Source: Frateuria hangzhouensis
Lineage (GTDB): Bacteria > Pseudomonadota > Gammaproteobacteria > Xanthomonadales > Rhodanobacteraceae
Length of the DNA stretch: 64,000 nucleotides
Reading direction: 5' to 3'
NCBI RefSeq assembly: GCF_026410505.1
Contig: NZ_JAPMIU010000004.1
Coordinates: 62,001-126,000, forward strand
Part shown: positions 23,572 to 48,123 of the stretch, piece after piece
How positions within the stretch are numbered: the first letter of the stretch is position 1
Layout of the letters: each line of letters begins with the position of its first letter
Notes under the pieces: generated by a model
Told to the model about the DNA's origin: nothing
What the model saw: only the letters and a program-made list of their open reading frames with translations
Database searches by the model: none
Made by a program: the position numbers and the translations under genes

Positions 23572-23694
23572 GGGCGGATCGATGCGATGGCGACAAACGG
23601 CGGCGGGTTTCACGAGGCCCGCCACGATCGTGCCGGCATGTCGATGAATTCCCCCCTGCCCGCGGCGCAGCAACTTCCATGCCACGGAGCCGGC

Positions 23695-40340: not shown

Positions 40341-40766
40341 ATGGCGAAGGACAACCTTGTATTGCTGGTGGAAGACGACTCGGACACGCGCGAGGTTATG
40401 GCGCTGTTGCTTGACGCGGCCGGCTACCAGGTGCTTTCCGCACGCGATGCCAGCAGCGGCATCCGGCTCATGGACGAACAGCCCCAGATCGACGTGATCG
40501 TCACCGACGTCAACATCGGCGGCGGCCAGGACGGCATCAGCATGACCGAGGAACTGCGCCGGCGCGGCTCGAACGCCGCCGTGGTGGTGATCTCCGGCGA
40601 TCCGGAAGCCTCCAGCGACCGGCTCGGCCCGACCGCCACCTTCCTGCCCAAGCCGTACGATCGCAAGGCGCTGCTGGCGGCCATCGCCGACGCCCGCGCC
40701 AAGAACGCCCGCGCCTGCGCCGTCGCGAATGAGGGCACGCCGCCCTATCCCGGTTTATCTCGCTAG
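40341..40766 (+). CDS. single-domain response regulator (REC)
   Basis: A 141-residue stand-alone receiver domain. It shows the acidic pair in LLVEDDSD (12-13), the phospho-acceptor Asp56 in VIVTDVNIGG, Ser/Thr in VVVISGD and the conserved Lys in LPKPYD. No output domain follows. ATG 40341 has a good Shine-Dalgarno sequence (GGAGGGG). It lies directly upstream of a PAS hybrid histidine kinase on the same strand, so it is probably a phosphorelay partner of that kinase. Confidence 0.9.
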   Translation: MAKDNLVLLVEDDSDTREVMALLLDAAGYQVLSARDASSGIRLMDEQPQIDVIVTDVNIGGGQDGISMTEELRRRGSNAAVVVISGDPEASSDRLGPTATFLPKPYDRKALLAAIADARAKNARACAVANEGTPPYPGLSR

Positions 40767-40907: not shown

Positions 40908-42851
40908 ATGGAGACGAGCGCAACCAACGCCTACCAACTGCTGGTGCAGTCCATCCGGGACTACGCCATCTTCATGGTCGACCGCCAAGGCCGCATCCGC
41001 AGCTGGAATGCCGGCGCCGAGCAGATCCACGGCCATCGAGCCGCCGACATCGTCGGCCGGGCGTTCGCGTTGCTGCATACCGAAGAGGAGCGCCACGGCG
41101 GTCGCCCCGAACTGATCCTGCACATGGCCGCCGCGCACGGCCGCTTCCAGGAGGAGGCCGAACGGCTGCGCCGCGACGGCAGCCGCTTCTGGGCGCACGT
41201 GGTGTGCGACGCGATGCGCGACGAGCACGGCAGCCTGCTCGGCTTTGCCATGGTTACCCGCGACATCACCGAGCGGCGGCTCACCGAAACGCAGTTGCGC
41301 GAGGTGGATCGGCGCTTCCGCCTGTTCGTCGACGGCGTCACCGACTGCGCGATCTGCATGCTCGACGCCAACGGCATCGTCACTGACTGGAATACCGGTG
41401 CCGAACGCATCAAGGGCTACACCGCCTCGGAGATCATCGGCCGGCCGCTGTCGCAGTTCTTCGTCAATCCGCTGGTGGCGCAGACCGCGATGACGGTGGC
41501 CAGCGAGGCCGGCCGCTACGACGTGGTCGACTGGCAGGTGCGCAAGGACGGCTCGCGCTTCATGGCCGAGATCGCCGTCGACGCGATCCGCGACAACGAC
41601 GGCCGACTGCTGGGCTTTGCCAAGATCACCCGCGACATCACCGAGCGCGTGGATGCCGAGCGGCACCTGGAGGACACCCGCGCGCAGCTGTTCCAGTCGC
41701 AGAAGATCGAGGCGCTGGGCCAGCTTACCGGCGGCATGGCGCACGATTTCAACAATCTCCTGCAGGGCATCATCGGCTCGCTGGAAGTGGTCGAGATGCG
41801 TCTGGCCGCCGGCCGCCAGGACGTCGACCGCTTTCTCGGCAACGCGCTGGAGTCGGCCAAGCGGGCGGCCACGCTGACCCATCGCCTGCTCGCCTTCGCG
41901 CGGCGCCAGCCGCTGGCGCCGCGCAGCGTCAACCTGAACGATCTGGTCGCGCAGATCGCCGAACTGCTGCCGGCCACGCTGGGCGAACGGGTCGAGCTGA
42001 AGCTGGATCTGGCGCCCTCGCTGCTGCCGGTGATGTGCGATCCCAACCTGCTCGAGAGCGCGATCCTCAACCTTTCGATCAATGCCCGCGACGCCATGCC
42101 CGAGGGCGGCCGCCTGACCATCCGCACCGCTTCGGTGCCGCCGGGCGAAGGCCCGCTGCACCGGCCGCACAGCCTGCGCGATGCGCCGACGCTGCTGCTG
42201 CAGGTCAGCGACACCGGCGTGGGCATGAGCGCCGACGTGCGCGCGCGCGCATTCGATCCGTTCTTCACCACCAAGCCCAAGGGCCGCGGCACCGGGTTGG
42301 GGCTGTCGATGATCCATGGCTTCGTCAGCCAGTCGCGCGGTGCCATCGAGCTGGACAGCGAACCGGGCCGCGGCACCACCGTGTCGGTCTACCTGCCCAG
42401 CGGCGAGCGCCGCAGCATGCGTGCGCTGGACGACCGCAACCCGGGCCGGGACTGGGAACCTGCCGCCGGCGAAACCATCCTGCTGGTGGAGGACGAGGAC
42501 GTGGTGCGCGACCTCATCGCCGGCAAGCTGCGCGAGCTGGGCTACCGCGTGATGGAGGCGCGCGACGGCCACGCCGGCCTGTCGCGGATCGAATCGGCCG
42601 AGCACATCGACATGGTGGTCTCCGACATCGGCCTTCCGGGCCTCACCGGCCTGCAGATGATCGAGATCGGGCGGCATCACCGGCCGGACCTGAAGGTGCT
42701 GTTCGTGACCGGCTACGCCGAGACGATGCCGGAGGACTGGACGCTCGACGCCAACACCGACCTGCTGACCAAGCCGTTCGAGTTCGACACCCTGGTCCAG
42801 CGCATGCGCACGCTGCTGCCTACTCCGCTCGAGCGCGCGCAAATCCCATAG
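40908..42851 (+). CDS. PAS-PAS hybrid histidine kinase with C-terminal receiver
   Basis: A 647-residue soluble kinase with no membrane segment. Two PAS domains (residues ~8-125 and ~130-250) each end in a DITER linker. The phospho-accepting His279 is in MAHDFNNLL. The ATPase domain shows LSINARDAMPEGG (N box), SDTGVGMSADV (G1) and GRGTGLGLSM (G2). A receiver follows from ~residue 520 with phospho-Asp573 in VVSDIGLPG. ATG 40908 is chosen because AAGGA precedes it; an in-frame ATG also lies at 40854. PAS domains suggest cytoplasmic redox, light or small-molecule sensing; the signal is unknown. Possible targets are the neighbouring REC protein and the sigma54 activator. Confidence 0.9.
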   Translation: METSATNAYQLLVQSIRDYAIFMVDRQGRIRSWNAGAEQIHGHRAADIVGRAFALLHTEEERHGGRPELILHMAAAHGRFQEEAERLRRDGSRFWAHVVCDAMRDEHGSLLGFAMVTRDITERRLTETQLREVDRRFRLFVDGVTDCAICMLDANGIVTDWNTGAERIKGYTASEIIGRPLSQFFVNPLVAQTAMTVASEAGRYDVVDWQVRKDGSRFMAEIAVDAIRDNDGRLLGFAKITRDITERVDAERHLEDTRAQLFQSQKIEALGQLTGGMAHDFNNLLQGIIGSLEVVEMRLAAGRQDVDRFLGNALESAKRAATLTHRLLAFARRQPLAPRSVNLNDLVAQIAELLPATLGERVELKLDLAPSLLPVMCDPNLLESAILNLSINARDAMPEGGRLTIRTASVPPGEGPLHRPHSLRDAPTLLLQVSDTGVGMSADVRARAFDPFFTTKPKGRGTGLGLSMIHGFVSQSRGAIELDSEPGRGTTVSVYLPSGERRSMRALDDRNPGRDWEPAAGETILLVEDEDVVRDLIAGKLRELGYRVMEARDGHAGLSRIESAEHIDMVVSDIGLPGLTGLQMIEIGRHHRPDLKVLFVTGYAETMPEDWTLDANTDLLTKPFEFDTLVQRMRTLLPTPLERAQIP

Positions 42852-43409: not shown

Positions 43410-44411
43410 ATGAGCCGACACGACGACGACGAACGCTCGCGCTACCGCACTCGCGGTGACGATATCCGCGAACGCAACCTGCGCGATCCCTACGAGGCGC
43501 GGCGGCAGGTACGCACCTACGAAAGCGACGACGGCTGGGCCGCCGAGCATCCCTGGCAGGCCGCGCATCCGCCCCGCGACGAGGGCCGCCGGGCCGAACG
43601 GTCGGCCCGCGACGGCGGCTACCGCGACGACGAGGAGCTGTGGTCGCGCCCGCGCGATGCCCGCGGCGACGCGCGCTACGGGCTGGATACCGAGGCCGAA
43701 CGTCATTTCGCACAGGAGCATCCGAACCCGGGCTCGCGCCACCGCGAGCACGGCCGCGACCGCGGCGACCACCGCCAGAGCAACAGTGGCTACGACGCCA
43801 CGCGCGCCTATGGCCAGGGCAGCCGGCAGGACGATGCGCGCAGCGACTACGCGCACGCGAGCTGGACGCAGGAACACGACTACCAGGGCCCGCGCTACGG
43901 CACGACCCACCGGCCCGGTCGCGGCGGAGAAGGCAGCCAGCGCGCGCACGAGGACACCTACGGCAGCGCGGGGTTCCGCCAGCAGGGCAAGCGCTACTGG
44001 TTCGACGGCAGCGACGAGCGCGGCCACTTTCGCGGCACCCCGCCGCGGGGCTACCAGCGCAGCGACGAACGCCTGCGCGAGCTGGCCTGCGAGCGCCTCA
44101 CCGACGCCGACCTGGATGCCAGCGACATCGAGGTCAAGGTCAGTCAGGCTACGGTCACACTCGAAGGCAGCGTGAGTGCGCGCTGGATGAAGCATCAGGC
44201 CGAAGACCTCATCGACGACCTGGGCGGCGTCAAGGACATCCAGAACCACCTGCGCGTCGATCGCGGCGAGGGCGACGCGGGCGGCGCGCAGGCCTTGCCT
44301 GGCGCCATCGGTTCGCCGGCGCAAGGCAGCAGCGCCGGCGGCGGTTCATCGAAGCCGGCGACCGGCGCGAGCGATCCGGGAGGCGATATCGGCGGACGCA
44401 GCAGACATTAG
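43410..44411 (+). CDS. BON-domain protein with long hydrophilic N-terminus
   Basis: A 333-residue very hydrophilic protein. Residues 1-205 are rich in Arg, Asp, Gly and His with short repeated patterns (such as AEHPWQAAHP and AQEHPNPGSRHREHGRD) and look disordered. Residues ~212-285 form a BON domain: LRELACERLTDADLDASDIE, VTLEGSVSARWMKHQAEDLI and a final VKDIQNHLRV. BON domains bind phospholipid or surface polymers; this one lacks a signal peptide, so its location is uncertain. The tail is Gly/Ser-rich. A strong AAAGGAG lies before ATG 43410. Relatives occur near stress genes in Xanthomonadales and Burkholderiales. Confidence 0.85.
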   Translation: MSRHDDDERSRYRTRGDDIRERNLRDPYEARRQVRTYESDDGWAAEHPWQAAHPPRDEGRRAERSARDGGYRDDEELWSRPRDARGDARYGLDTEAERHFAQEHPNPGSRHREHGRDRGDHRQSNSGYDATRAYGQGSRQDDARSDYAHASWTQEHDYQGPRYGTTHRPGRGGEGSQRAHEDTYGSAGFRQQGKRYWFDGSDERGHFRGTPPRGYQRSDERLRELACERLTDADLDASDIEVKVSQATVTLEGSVSARWMKHQAEDLIDDLGGVKDIQNHLRVDRGEGDAGGAQALPGAIGSPAQGSSAGGGSSKPATGASDPGGDIGGRSRH

Positions 44412-44662: not shown

Positions 44663-46003
44663 GTGCCGACGAACGCTTCCATCCTGCTCGTTGACGACGA
44701 CCTCCAATTCCTAGACGTGGTAACTGCCTTCGCCGAATCGAAAGAATGCACCGTCACCGGCGCCGCCAGCCTTGCGCATGCGCTCAAGCTCGTCGCCGAA
44801 CAACGCTTCGACCTGCTGATGCTCGACCTGTCACTACCGGACGGGCACGGGCTGGAGCTGATCGGCCGGCTGGACCCGCAGCAGGCTGGACAGGTGGTCG
44901 TGGTGACCGGACACCCCTCGGTGGAGACCGCCGTGCGCGCACTGCAACTGCCCGTGCTGGATTACCTGATCAAGCCGATCGACGGCGTCCAGCTCAACCG
45001 CCTGCTCGACCAGGCGATCGCCGCGGCCAAGCTGTGTGCCGCGCCGGAGGGTGGTGACGAGCGCTGCGGCGAGCTGATCGGCGCCAGTGCGGTGATGCAA
45101 CGCCTGTTCGACAAGATCCGCCGCGTCGCGCCGCTGGACGTGACCGTGCTGATCTACGGCGAAAGCGGCACCGGCAAGGAGCTGGCCGCGCGCGCGCTGC
45201 ACGAGTTCAGCGAGCGCAGCGGGCGCTTTGTCGCGGTCAACTGCGGCGCGATCGCGCCGGACCTGCTCACCAGCCAGTTGTTCGGCCACGAGCGCGGCAG
45301 CTTCACCGGCGCGGTGAAAGACCACGCCGGCTTCTTCGAACAGGCACAGGGCGGCACGCTGTTCCTGGACGAATGCACCGAGATGCCGCTGCAGTTGCAG
45401 ACCCACCTGCTGCGCGTGTTGGAGGAGCGCGACGTCACCCGCGTCGGCGCCAGCGCCAGCAAGCCGGTGGACGTGCGCGTGATCGCCGCGACCAACCGCG
45501 ACCCGCTGCAGGCTGTGCGCGAGGGCGTGCTGCGCGCCGACCTCTACTACCGCCTGATGGATTTTCCCCTGGCGATGCCGCCGCTGCGCGACCACGCCAG
45601 CGACATCCCGCTGCTGGCCCAGCGCTTCCTGGACCGGCTCAATGATCGCTACGGCACCACGCGGCGGTTCGCGCCCGATGCCACGCGCCGGCTACTGACT
45701 TACGACTGGCCCGGCAACGCGCGCGAGCTCAAGCACGCCGTGCAACGGGCCTGGGTGATGTCCGGCGAAGAGCTGGACATGCACATCGCACAACCGCCGC
45801 AGCACCCGCTGCACCAGGCACACGAGCACGGCAGCATGCCTTTCCGCATCGGCATGACCATCGAGGAAATGGAAAAGCAGATGCTGCTGCGCACGCTGGC
45901 GCATTTCGACAACGACAAGACGCGAACGGCCGAGGCGCTGGGGGTCAGCCTCAAGACGATCTACAACAAGCTGTCGCGCTACCAGCACGAAGACCGCGAA
46001 TGA
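44663..46003 (+). CDS. sigma54-dependent response regulator (NtrC family, REC-AAA+-Fis)
   Basis: A 446-residue enhancer-binding activator. The receiver (1-120) has acidic residues DDD 11-13, phospho-Asp55 in LLMLDLSLPD and Lys in LIKPID. The AAA+ domain shows Walker A GESGTGKE at ~166-173, the sigma54-contact loop GSFTGA at 212-217, Walker B GGTLFLDECTEM and the arginine-finger region. The C-terminus carries a Fis-type helix-turn-helix (TRTAEALGVSLKTIYNKL). GTG 44663 is used. Its intact sigma54 loop and the three -24/-12 sites in flanking spacers suggest it drives nearby genes. The overlapping GAF gene follows. Confidence 0.93.
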   Translation: MPTNASILLVDDDLQFLDVVTAFAESKECTVTGAASLAHALKLVAEQRFDLLMLDLSLPDGHGLELIGRLDPQQAGQVVVVTGHPSVETAVRALQLPVLDYLIKPIDGVQLNRLLDQAIAAAKLCAAPEGGDERCGELIGASAVMQRLFDKIRRVAPLDVTVLIYGESGTGKELAARALHEFSERSGRFVAVNCGAIAPDLLTSQLFGHERGSFTGAVKDHAGFFEQAQGGTLFLDECTEMPLQLQTHLLRVLEERDVTRVGASASKPVDVRVIAATNRDPLQAVREGVLRADLYYRLMDFPLAMPPLRDHASDIPLLAQRFLDRLNDRYGTTRRFAPDATRRLLTYDWPGNARELKHAVQRAWVMSGEELDMHIAQPPQHPLHQAHEHGSMPFRIGMTIEEMEKQMLLRTLAHFDNDKTRTAEALGVSLKTIYNKLSRYQHEDRE

Positions 46004-46004
46004 C

Positions 46005-46721
46005 ATGAATGCACGCCCGGCAAGCTCCGCCATCACCCCCATCCCCCTGCCGCTGCCGACCACCCTGCAAGCGCTCGACGCCTCCTCCGCGGATCAGGCG
46101 ATCACCCGCCTGTTGCAGCACGTCGGCATGCAGTGGCACGCCGAGGTCTGCCTGCTGGTGGCGCCGCATCGCCCGAGCGGGCAGGGCCGCTATTGCTGGC
46201 AGCTGCCGCCGCCGCCAGCCACGCGCCGCGAGGCGCGCGCGCTGGCCGGGCAACTGGCCGCGCAATCACTGCGCACGGCGCGCACCGTGGAGCGCACCGA
46301 TGCACATGAGCGCAGCGGCACCGCCCGCCTGCGCGCGATCGCCCTGCCCTGCCGGCGCCAACGCCGGCCTGCCGCCGCGCTGGGCCTGGCGCTGTACCGG
46401 CCGCGCACGCTCGACGCCGAGGAACGCGCGGCGCTGGCCCATGTCGGCGCCTGGCTGGCCGTGCTGCTGCAGCGCGAACGGCGCGAAGCCAACGAACAGG
46501 AACAGAGCGCCGACCCGGTGCCAGTGGTCGACGCGATCAACAACGCGCTCAACGTCATCCTGATGCGCACGGACCTGGCCGCGCTGATGCTCGAACGCGA
46601 GGAACACGCCAAGGTGCTCGCCGTGCTCAACCAGATCGGCCGCGGCTGCCTGCGCTGTGCCGAACTGGCCCGCGGCCTGCTCGCCGACCCGCCCCCGCCA
46701 CCCCCGTCCGAAATCAACTGA
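46005..46721 (+). CDS. GAF-like protein ending in a degenerate histidine-kinase dimerisation domain
   Basis: A 238-residue soluble protein. Residues ~25-165 look like a GAF-type sensor (QAITRLLQHVGMQWHAEVCL, then LGLALYRPRTLDAEERAALA). Residues 173-230 align well with the kinase helix pair: DAINNALNVILMRTDLAALM corresponds to HDFNNLLQGIIGSLEVVEMR of the hybrid kinase here, ending in a matching LARGLLA. The phospho-His is replaced by Asp176 and no ATPase domain follows. It starts 1 nt after the sigma54 activator stop, so they are co-expressed. It may bind or modulate kinases or the activator; this is inference. Confidence 0.7.
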   Translation: MNARPASSAITPIPLPLPTTLQALDASSADQAITRLLQHVGMQWHAEVCLLVAPHRPSGQGRYCWQLPPPPATRREARALAGQLAAQSLRTARTVERTDAHERSGTARLRAIALPCRRQRRPAAALGLALYRPRTLDAEERAALAHVGAWLAVLLQRERREANEQEQSADPVPVVDAINNALNVILMRTDLAALMLEREEHAKVLAVLNQIGRGCLRCAELARGLLADPPPPPPSEIN

Positions 46722-47114
46722 CGCTTCGCCGCGAGCGACCTGCCCGGCTCAAGGGCGGCTGACCCGCTAGGCCTTGGCGCGAATGTTCGCCTTCATGCTT
46801 TGCGACTGCGCTGCCTGCCTGCCCTCGCCCCGCCCGGCCATCCAAACGTCTACCCGCGCTGCACGCTGCCGTCACCGCCCCTAGCTGCCCGACTCGGCAA
46901 GTTTTCCAAGCGGCTTTGTAGTTTTGCCGCGACCGCTTCCGAGCAGGCACGACAGCGTTCAGCCTGTCGACGACGTTGCCGGCGTTACGGCGGCGTTCGC
47001 CGCACTTTCGTTACTGGCATGGATGTTGCGATCACCCGGCAGCCGCCGCGCAACGCGGCGTGCCGTCGGGCCCCCGCTGCTCGACGTCCCCGAACGCACA
47101 AAGAGAGCACCGAC
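46722..47114. other. 393-bp intergenic region upstream of the KGG gene
   Basis: It contains a -24/-12 promoter-like site at 47014-47030, a CTGCCTGCCTGCC stretch at 46811-46823 related to the palindrome at 42915, and an inverted repeat GACAG/CTGTC near 46950. Open frames that cross it show no family features and appear non-coding. Confidence 0.45.
47014..47030 (+). promoter_or_regulatory. candidate sigma54 (-24/-12) promoter before the KGG gene
   Basis: CTGGCATG-GATG-TTGCG matches the sigma54 consensus at both invariant pairs, GG (47016-47017) and GC (47028-47029), with the required 10 nt between them. The start point would be near 47041, about 74 nt before ATG 47115. Confidence 0.6.
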
Positions 47115-47420
47115 ATGTCCAGCAAGAACCCAGGCAGCGGCACCAGCAAGCGCGGCTTCGCCAGCATGGACGAGGAACGCCAGCGCGAGATCGCCAGCGA
47201 AGGTGGCCGTGCGGCGCATGCCAGCGGCCACGCCCATCAGTTCACGTCCGAGGAGGCGCGCCGCGCCGGCCAGAAAGGTGGCGAGGCGGTGAGTTCCAAC
47301 CGCGAACACATGGCAGCGATCGGCCGCAAGGGCGGCGAAGCCAGCCATGGCCGCCGCGGCGGCGAGGGCGTGCAGGCCCGGTCCGGCCGGGAGGGCCAGA
47401 AGAACGAGGAAGGCGATTGA
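47115..47420 (+). CDS. KGG-repeat stress-induced hydrophilic protein
   Basis: A 101-residue glycine-rich hydrophilin with three KGG-type repeats: FASMDEERQREIASEGGRAA, FTSEEARRAGQKGGEAVSSN and HMAAIGRKGGEASHG. These match the PF10685 KGG motif of GsiB and YciG-like proteins, which are induced by stress and starvation and are probably disordered protectants. ATG 47115 has a GAGAG ribosome site. A good sigma54 promoter candidate lies upstream, and the DUF4142 gene follows after 52 bp, probably in the same transcript. Confidence 0.9.
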   Translation: MSSKNPGSGTSKRGFASMDEERQREIASEGGRAAHASGHAHQFTSEEARRAGQKGGEAVSSNREHMAAIGRKGGEASHGRRGGEGVQARSGREGQKNEEGD

Positions 47421-47472: not shown

Positions 47473-48123
47473 ATGACCGCACGACGCATCACGCTGATGC
47501 TCGGTACATTGCTGCTGGCCGGCTTGGCCTGCACGGCTTTCGCGCAGGGCAACGCCAGCCCGGACCGCAGCGACAGCATGAGCAGAAGCATGAGCGGCAA
47601 CGGCAACCATGACGCGATGTTCATGCGCCACGCCGCCGCCGATTCGATAGCCGAGATCCGGATGGGCAAGATCGCGCTGGACAAATCGTCCTCGACGCAG
47701 GTCAAGCAACTGGCCCAGCGCATCATCGCCGACCACACCAACGCCAACAACCAGTTGATGAGCATCGCCGCGCGCAAGCAGGTCACCCTGCCGACCGAGC
47801 CGATGCCGATGGCCAGGCAGGAGGCCGACCGCCTGCAGGCGCTCAGCGGGACCGCCTTCGACCAGGCCTATGCCGACACCATGGTCAAGGATCATCGCAA
47901 GGCCATCAAGATGTTCGGCATGCAAAGCCAGAACGCCAGCGACAGCGACCTCAAGCAGTTCGCCAGCACCACGCTGCCGGCGCTGAAGACCCATCTTCAG
48001 ATGGCCGAGCAGATCGCCGGCAACCCGGACCGCGGACACGATGCCATGAGCCACCCCGATGGCACGCCGATGGACAACAGCGGCTCGATGGGCATGCCCG
48101 CTTCCGGCAGCAGTTCGCGTTGA
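47473..48123 (+). CDS. DUF4142 periplasmic protein
   Basis: A 216-residue exported protein with a clear Sec signal peptide (RRITLMLGTLLLAGLACTAF, cleavage after AFA). The DUF4142 helical domain spans residues ~50-185 (AADSIAEIRMGKIALDKSSS, LAQRIIADHTNANNQLMSIA, AYADTMVKDHRKAIKMF), a ferritin-like four-helix arrangement. The Met/Ser/Gly-rich tail may bind metal, though this is not shown. ATG 47473 has an AGGAG site. DUF4142 proteins often sit beside general stress genes, as here behind the KGG gene. Confidence 0.9.
   Translation: MTARRITLMLGTLLLAGLACTAFAQGNASPDRSDSMSRSMSGNGNHDAMFMRHAAADSIAEIRMGKIALDKSSSTQVKQLAQRIIADHTNANNQLMSIAARKQVTLPTEPMPMARQEADRLQALSGTAFDQAYADTMVKDHRKAIKMFGMQSQNASDSDLKQFASTTLPALKTHLQMAEQIAGNPDRGHDAMSHPDGTPMDNSGSMGMPASGSSSR

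Follow-up and report, generated by a model that had tools for sequence, protein, structure and literature searches.

The window analysed here is a stretch of 64,000 nucleotides from Frateuria hangzhouensis, a soil bacterium. The features that concern us all lie on its forward strand:

40341–40766 (+), single-domain response regulator (Response_reg, E 6.8e-17)
40908–42851 (+), hybrid histidine kinase, PAS-PAS-HisKA-HATPase-REC by Pfam, a candidate phosphate donor
43410–44411 (+), BON-domain protein (PF04972, E 4.5e-12)
44663–46003 (+), sigma54 response regulator, with REC, AAA+ and Fis HTH domains by Pfam and the motif GSFTGA
46005–46721 (+), the gene studied here, 238 aa from an ATG start, with a GAF-like N-terminus and a DHp hairpin
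46095–46472 (+), its GAF-like part, residues 31–156 (boundaries set by us on a weak GAF_3 match)
46530–46685 (+), its DHp-type helix pair, residues 176–227, from profile–profile matches and two predicted helices
46530–46532 (+), codon of Asp176, in the column of the phospho-acceptor His
46542–46544 (+), codon of Asn180, at His+4, the phosphatase residue of HisKA kinases
47015–47030 (+), sigma54 promoter-like site TGGCATGGATGTTGCG, from a motif scan with a spacing control over 41 stretches
47115–47420 (+), KGG-repeat stress protein (PF10685, E 3.5e-15), starting 84 nt behind the sigma54-like site
47473–48123 (+), DUF4142 protein (PF13628, E 6.9e-43)

The stop codon of the sigma54 activator occupies positions 46001–46003, leaving the gap of 1 nt to the 46005–46721 gene that the first-pass annotation had reported. 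The phospho-acceptor Asp of the regulator is present, as it is in all 40 aligned homologues, and an alignment that included four of the six Frateuria regulators shows eight Frateuria-specific columns, none of them at the phospho-acceptor or the catalytic motifs. For the hybrid kinase, CckA-type models are among the best NCBIfam matches, below their cut-off.

Pfam and NCBIfam scans find no ATPase (HATPase) domain in the 238-aa protein, as first noted, so it is not a complete sensor histidine kinase. NCBIfam returns no match at all, and the sole Pfam match is a weak one to GAF_3 over residues 72–156 (E 0.022, 15.6 bits against a cut-off of 27). One of eight aligned family members matches GAF_2 at 1.1e-7. 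The original description of a GAF protein is thus reasonable at the level of the family and weak for the Frateuria sequence itself. HisKA (PF00512, curated cut-off 26.9 bits) is not among the Pfam matches listed for the protein at E up to 10, nor is the monomeric HPt domain PF01627 among those listed for it and 10 relatives at the same limit. HisKA does appear below the cut-off in eight of the 10 relatives scanned, the best scoring 22.8 bits, which may explain why these hairpin proteins go unnamed. A scan of the source genome for monomeric HPt domains gave eight matches, six of them above the cut-off, in open frames of 275–2026 codons that all lie elsewhere; the 275-codon frame (L217) holds a 225 aa protein whose start looks, by eye, like a receiver. 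The 2026-codon frame (G000:C6:86807-90769) has four HPt matches and is perhaps, at a guess, a large chemotaxis-type kinase.

The case for the helix pair comes from profiles. In hhalign, the family hairpin with the Frateuria sequences left out matches a set of 10 kinase DHp domains at 94.9% (E 4.8e-8). For the Frateuria hairpin by itself the probability is 97.9% (E 3e-13) against the family but only 53% (E 1.4e-4) against the kinase DHp domains; three reversed controls gave 0.1–4.2%. In the aligned ranges Asp176 falls in the column of the kinase His, and the family alignments concur. A model of residues 165–231 consists of two helices, 172–195 and 199–227, with a pLDDT of 77, so the absence of a helical hairpin, which would have spoken against the first-pass annotation, was not what structure prediction returned. 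The full-length model, built with four close sequences, is poor (pLDDT 41) and uninformative. Foldseek found nothing at E ≤ 0.001 for the hairpin model, and the kinase DHp domains that it listed (GacS, ZraS) stood beside unrelated hairpins. A profile search of solved structures put designed helical proteins first (E 2e-4), which is a composition effect, with kinases appearing only from E about 0.06. Judged by the profile comparisons, then, the protein carries a genuine DHp-type hairpin that is homologous to the DHp domains of histidine kinases, as had been proposed from the letters alone.

The proposal had, however, been based on an almost gap-free alignment with the hybrid kinase of the window, and that alignment proved unspecific: it has 8 identities in 52 positions and an ungapped score of −7, a value reached at 10 of 620 offsets, and the local alignment score is reached by 52% of shuffles. 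We dropped the pairwise match as evidence of homology because it is not significant, and argue homology from the profiles instead; the likeness to this kinase is the generic HisKA relationship, visible only by profiles. This bears on the idea that the protein and the hybrid kinase pair through their hairpins in a mixed dimer, which would block or tune the kinase, in the style of RetS and GacS. The two hairpins are of the same fold class, and foldseek lists the RetS–GacS DHp complex (7n0e), at E > 1. The likeness is generic rather than specific, though, and the gene usually found beside the hairpin is that of the regulator and not of a kinase, so we regard such pairing as very improbable.

The gene was found in all six Frateuria genomes examined, the source genome included, and the other five copies are 83–89% identical to it. 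Each of those five has the same frame and the same end, with slight variation in the last residues, which rules out a kinase truncated in one strain. All six carry the motif DAINNALN at the position of the His, and the codon of Asp176 is GAC or GAT depending on the species. Over the 15 Frateuria pairs the median dN/dS is 0.148 for the whole gene, 0.131 for the GAF part, 0.167 for the entire hairpin and 0.031 for helix 1; constraint is thus strongest on helix 1, where the Asp sits, and more relaxed on helix 2. The loss of the His, and the failure of Pfam to recognise the hairpin in the window protein, are what one might expect of a functionless, decaying remnant. A gene that is intact in six genomes at such divergence and under strong purifying selection on helix 1 makes decay the least credible of the explanations considered here. 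Gene order is also kept: the window and two further loci (L107 and L108, where genes were labelled by likeness to those of the window) share the series single-domain regulator, hybrid kinase, BON, regulator, hairpin, KGG and DUF4142. A third locus (L109) runs from the hybrid kinase, inside which its contig begins, to a DUF4142-like gene, with a 138 aa gene in the KGG position.

To see how widely such proteins occur, a profile of the protein was run against 233 genomes of Frateuria's family, and hairpin profiles against 398 genomes of the order and 297 of a second family, presumably the Xanthomonadaceae. Matches at E ≤ 0.001 were obtained in 26, 44 and 162 of these genomes, respectively; many are complete kinases matched weakly, and many of the frames in the second family span 400–1000 aa. 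The hairpin profile was made from 30 of 36 aligned hairpins (L075, L112, L124, L155, L157 and L158 were left out), and because it was built from those members their E-values follow from its construction. From the matches we assembled 65 loci, all picked as short frames and with close species unthinned: 15 come from Frateuria's own family (six being Frateuria), and the second family contributes 50, namely the 30 best by score and 20 weaker short frames picked by hand. The gene caller was trained on four genes of the window, the target among them; the starts that it assigns are guesses, and the hairpin genes at L122/L190 and L136 escaped it.

Hairpin proteins without an ATPase motif occur in 15 of the 233 genomes of Frateuria's family, so neither a truncation confined to one strain nor orthologues with a full ATPase domain account for the Frateuria protein. 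Twelve of these genomes, including the six Frateuria, have proteins of 216–238 aa with the GAF–hairpin plan or a similar one, two have proteins of 182 aa and one has a protein of 78 aa. In the second family the proteins inspected are, by called starts, 56–112 aa long and mostly a bare hairpin, three being of 165 aa. One regular expression for the ATPase motif finds it in none of the 65 hairpin frames. In 55 of the 65, the gene immediately upstream, in the same orientation, encodes a sigma54 regulator with a receiver, and by called starts the hairpin genes mostly overlap the stop of the regulator or start within about 60 bases of it; the ten loci without such a neighbour are L026–L028, L138, L141–L143, L146, L147 and L158. 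Hairpin proteins that lack an ATPase domain and stand beside an NtrC-type sigma54 regulator form a sizeable and apparently undescribed family. Among open-access titles and the beginnings of abstracts, which are weak evidence of absence, we found no account of a hairpin-only family linked to a sigma54 regulator, nor one of a natural member with His replaced by Asp. A search of 369 genomes of the class gave 10 matches at E ≤ 1e-6, one being the source genome and the other nine having open frames of 387–840 aa; this search missed the hairpin-bearing genome G018, and absence beyond the order cannot be inferred from it. Among the weaker hairpin-profile matches, L029, L033, L035 and L043–L046 are complete kinases, none of them directly behind a regulator of the window type; L029, L033 and L035 are small, sensor-less kinases with an ATPase domain.

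The phospho-acceptor column is His in 59 of the 65 loci and Asp in the remaining six, all of which are Frateuria. The substitution that the first-pass annotation had reported is thus present throughout the genus as sampled, and absent from the other orthologues surveyed. The "half-kinase" of that annotation does lack both the His and the ATPase domain; its oddity lies elsewhere than had been thought, since the Asp is an exception in a hairpin-only family that keeps its His, and the question shifts from an odd half-kinase to an odd member of a family of partner proteins. Asn is found at His+4 in 65 of 65 loci, and an acidic residue at His+1 in only 24, being missing in 41, whereas the 10 kinase DHp domains, all reading HDFNN, have Asp there. 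In HisKA kinases the Thr or Asn at +4 is required only for phosphatase activity and the acid at +1 only for kinase activity, according to the available text of PMC3510030. The pattern would fit a family that no longer holds strictly to the kinase residue but retains the one for phosphatase activity, with Frateuria one step further. This argument is suggestive only, because PhyT, which has the motif HRxxN and a degenerated ATPase domain, is described as transferring phosphate with no phosphatase activity on PhyR (PMC5898713, available text); the HRxxN motif also occurs in several members of the hairpin family.

A His kept in 59 of 65 loci is needed more by a phosphotransferase than by a phosphatase, and it is the main argument for another reading, in which the family consists of hairpin-only phosphotransferases, akin to Spo0B, ChpT and PhyT, that take phosphate from a hybrid-kinase receiver and deliver it to the sigma54 regulator; the Frateuria protein would then be a pseudo-phosphotransferase, a passive binder of the receiver or a competitor for it. 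Relay carriers of this kind may be HPt proteins or pseudo-kinases (PMC9981736, in the text available), so pseudo-kinase phosphotransferases as such are already known. A hybrid kinase lies upstream in the window and in L107–L109, and in the second family one with ATPase and receiver domains by profiles directly adjoins the hairpin–regulator pair at seven of the 31 wide loci (L179, L183, L185, L193, L195, L196 and L199). At L203 (the same place as L138) and L142 the gene directly before the hairpin is a hybrid kinase, and the stretch has no sigma54 regulator. Against this, 23 of the 31 wide loci have no adjacent hybrid kinase, several of these stretches being cut by contig ends, and the reading would have to be modified for Frateuria, since none of the six genomes has the His. 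What is reported of PhyT also speaks against a passive binder: its H341A variant lost its association with PhyR in cells, the His being needed to hold PhyR at the membrane (PMC5898713). We consider the relay origin with a passive Frateuria member doubtful, though it stands next after the reading that we favour.

The regulator does not depend on the hairpin everywhere. Strong homologues of the window regulator (E ≤ 1e-110) are present in 35 of the 233 genomes of Frateuria's family, and 31 regulator loci were compared, leaving out four of these genomes (G063, G074, G251 and G253). Twelve of the 31 (the six Frateuria, G019, G023, G137, G250, G252 and G018) have a hairpin without an ATPase motif behind the regulator, and in the other 19 the profile search found none within the 1.5 kb examined. 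The hairpin is thus an accessory partner, gained or lost, rather than a fixed part of the system. A kinase on the opposite strand accompanies several of the hairpin-less regulators (L058–L060, L062, L066, L071 and L076; L058, L059 and L066 by eye). Behind four of them (L058, L059, L062 and L066) lie, on the opposite strand, HDxNN proteins of 218–244 aa, with an ATPase part recognised by eye in L058 and L059 and by motif in L062, only the start of the protein being seen in L066. These small kinases, like those of L029, L033 and L035, are possibly the state before the loss of the ATPase domain.

The probable targets of the regulator can be read from promoter-like sites. The pattern TGGCAY-N5-TTGC was counted in 40 wide loci and the window, 700 kb in all, and occurs 58 times at the correct 5-base gap against 2, 1, 3 and 0 times at gaps of 3, 4, 6 and 7; 39 of the 58 correctly spaced sites lie 20–130 nt ahead of a called gene. 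We rely on this spacing control for the sites because a looser scan of the window alone, allowing up to two mismatches, was little above chance (47 matches against 35.1, sd 6.0, expected, with 3 of 100 shuffles reaching 47). In relatives the genes behind such sites resemble BON, KGG and similar genes by eye, the domain scan having been made on the window copies only. With correctly spaced sites ahead of these stress genes, the regulator probably drives them, and KGG, BON and DUF4142 would then make up a likely sigma54 stress regulon.

Our preferred reading of the Frateuria protein, held tentatively and at somewhat less than even confidence, is that it acts as a GAF-gated brake, binding the phosphorylated receiver of the regulator and speeding the loss of its phosphate through Asn180; the relatives in the family are probably hairpin-only partners for phosphotransfer or phosphatase activity. 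Two hairpins would form a four-helix bundle, on which the receiver of the regulator docks. In the His-bearing relatives the bundle could exchange phosphate with the receiver in either direction, or strip it off. The replacement of the His by Asp in Frateuria excludes phosphate transfer on that residue and is the reason why a brake is favoured. A signal sensed by the GAF part would decide whether the protein binds the phosphorylated receiver, phosphate would be lost by way of Asn180, as with the isolated DHp domains of EnvZ and NtrB, and the brake would in this way control the supply of activator to the sigma54 promoters of the stress genes nearby. Dimerisation, receiver binding, phosphate loss and gating are all steps that we infer.

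Several observations agree with a brake of this kind: the homology to kinase DHp domains, the regulator placed directly upstream in 55 of 65 loci, the invariant Asn at +4 beside an acid at +1 in a minority, an intact and phosphorylatable regulator, and promoter-like sites at the correct gap. Purifying selection has continued after the loss of the His, most strongly on helix 1, with the Asp kept through both of its codons. In the available text of PMC3510030, EnvZ or NtrB needs no more than its DHp domain to act as a phosphatase; the His enhances this activity and is not required for it. The same text adds that the ATPase domain greatly raises the phosphatase activity of EnvZ and NtrB, and that CrdS H371A has less of it, both of which count against the brake. 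The Asn at +4 is not specific to phosphatases, as PhyT illustrates, and the loss of PhyR association in PhyT H341A speaks against receiver binding without a His (PMC5898713). Constraint is uneven as well, the hairpin as a whole having a higher dN/dS than the GAF part, and the regulator manages without a hairpin at 19 of 31 loci of its own family.

DivL of Caulobacter is a further warning against the brake. It has Tyr in place of the His and keeps receiver docking, is reported to have neither kinase nor phosphatase activity, and binds and stabilises DivK~P (PMC4211667, available text). The Frateuria protein resembles DivL in its replaced phospho-acceptor and in having no kinase role, and it might likewise read the phosphorylation of the regulator, leave it unchanged and relay the information, for example to the hybrid kinase. 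DivL, however, has PAS and ATPase-like domains, whereas the Frateuria protein has Asp and ends after the hairpin, and the data indicate no partner for such a sensor; we think this role improbable. In order of decreasing probability we therefore place the brake first, followed by the pseudo-phosphotransferase, the DivL-like sensor, pairing with the kinase and decay.

Several known systems resemble the family. Like Spo0B, ChpT and PhyT, it combines a DHp-type helix pair and the lack of working ATPase activity with a receiver partner, and outside Frateuria it has the His. Unlike ChpT and PhyT, which keep a degenerate ATPase-like domain (PMC9981736 and PMC5898713, in the parts available), it has nothing after the hairpin, and unlike all three it has many members of only 56–112 aa and, in Frateuria, no His to carry phosphate. 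By profiles it shares the hairpin of HisKA DHp domains (PF00512), such as domain A of EnvZ, including the Asn at His+4. It differs from these domains in being a natural stand-alone protein rather than an engineered fragment, in lacking the kinase-specific acid in 41 of 65 loci, and in that every member scanned scores under the Pfam cut-off.

Two acid–amide pairs are described in other receiver phosphatases, ExxN in CheX and DxxxQ in CheZ (PMC3510030, available text), and Frateuria has both D176xxN179 and D176xxxN180; the likeness is one of residue spacing only and we claim no relationship in sequence. It allows a bolder proposal, which we rate as rather unlikely: that dedicated receiver phosphatases have evolved from histidine kinases pared down to the DHp hairpin alone, and that the change of His to Asp in Frateuria built a CheX/CheZ-like acid–amide pair, gated by GAF, for a sigma54 stress activator.

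Two-component signalling usually pairs a kinase with a regulator, and here a gene coupled to the regulator encodes a docking hairpin only. Members of 56–112 residues would rank with the smallest natural proteins that allow receiver docking, phosphotransfer and phosphatase activity to be separated. Frateuria offers a natural His-to-Asp experiment, in which comparison with the His-bearing relatives would test whether the histidine is needed, and the related regulators without a hairpin offer a further natural comparison.

Some minor observations concern the same kinds of site and gene. The 16-base site TGGCATGGATGTTGCG is identical in three genera, at 47015–47030 of the window, at 12184 of L171 and at 7591 of L172, and in the window and L171 it lies shortly ahead of KGG-like genes. 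A second sigma54-like site of the window, TGGCATGGAAGTTGCT at 23669–23684 on the minus strand, is 97 nt before a gene of 320 aa that overlaps a minus-strand GAF match. In three genomes outside the 35 with a strong regulator match (G101, G106 and G111; loci L173–L175), two hybrid kinases flank a GAF–hairpin gene on the opposite strand, and the stretch contains no sigma54 regulator.
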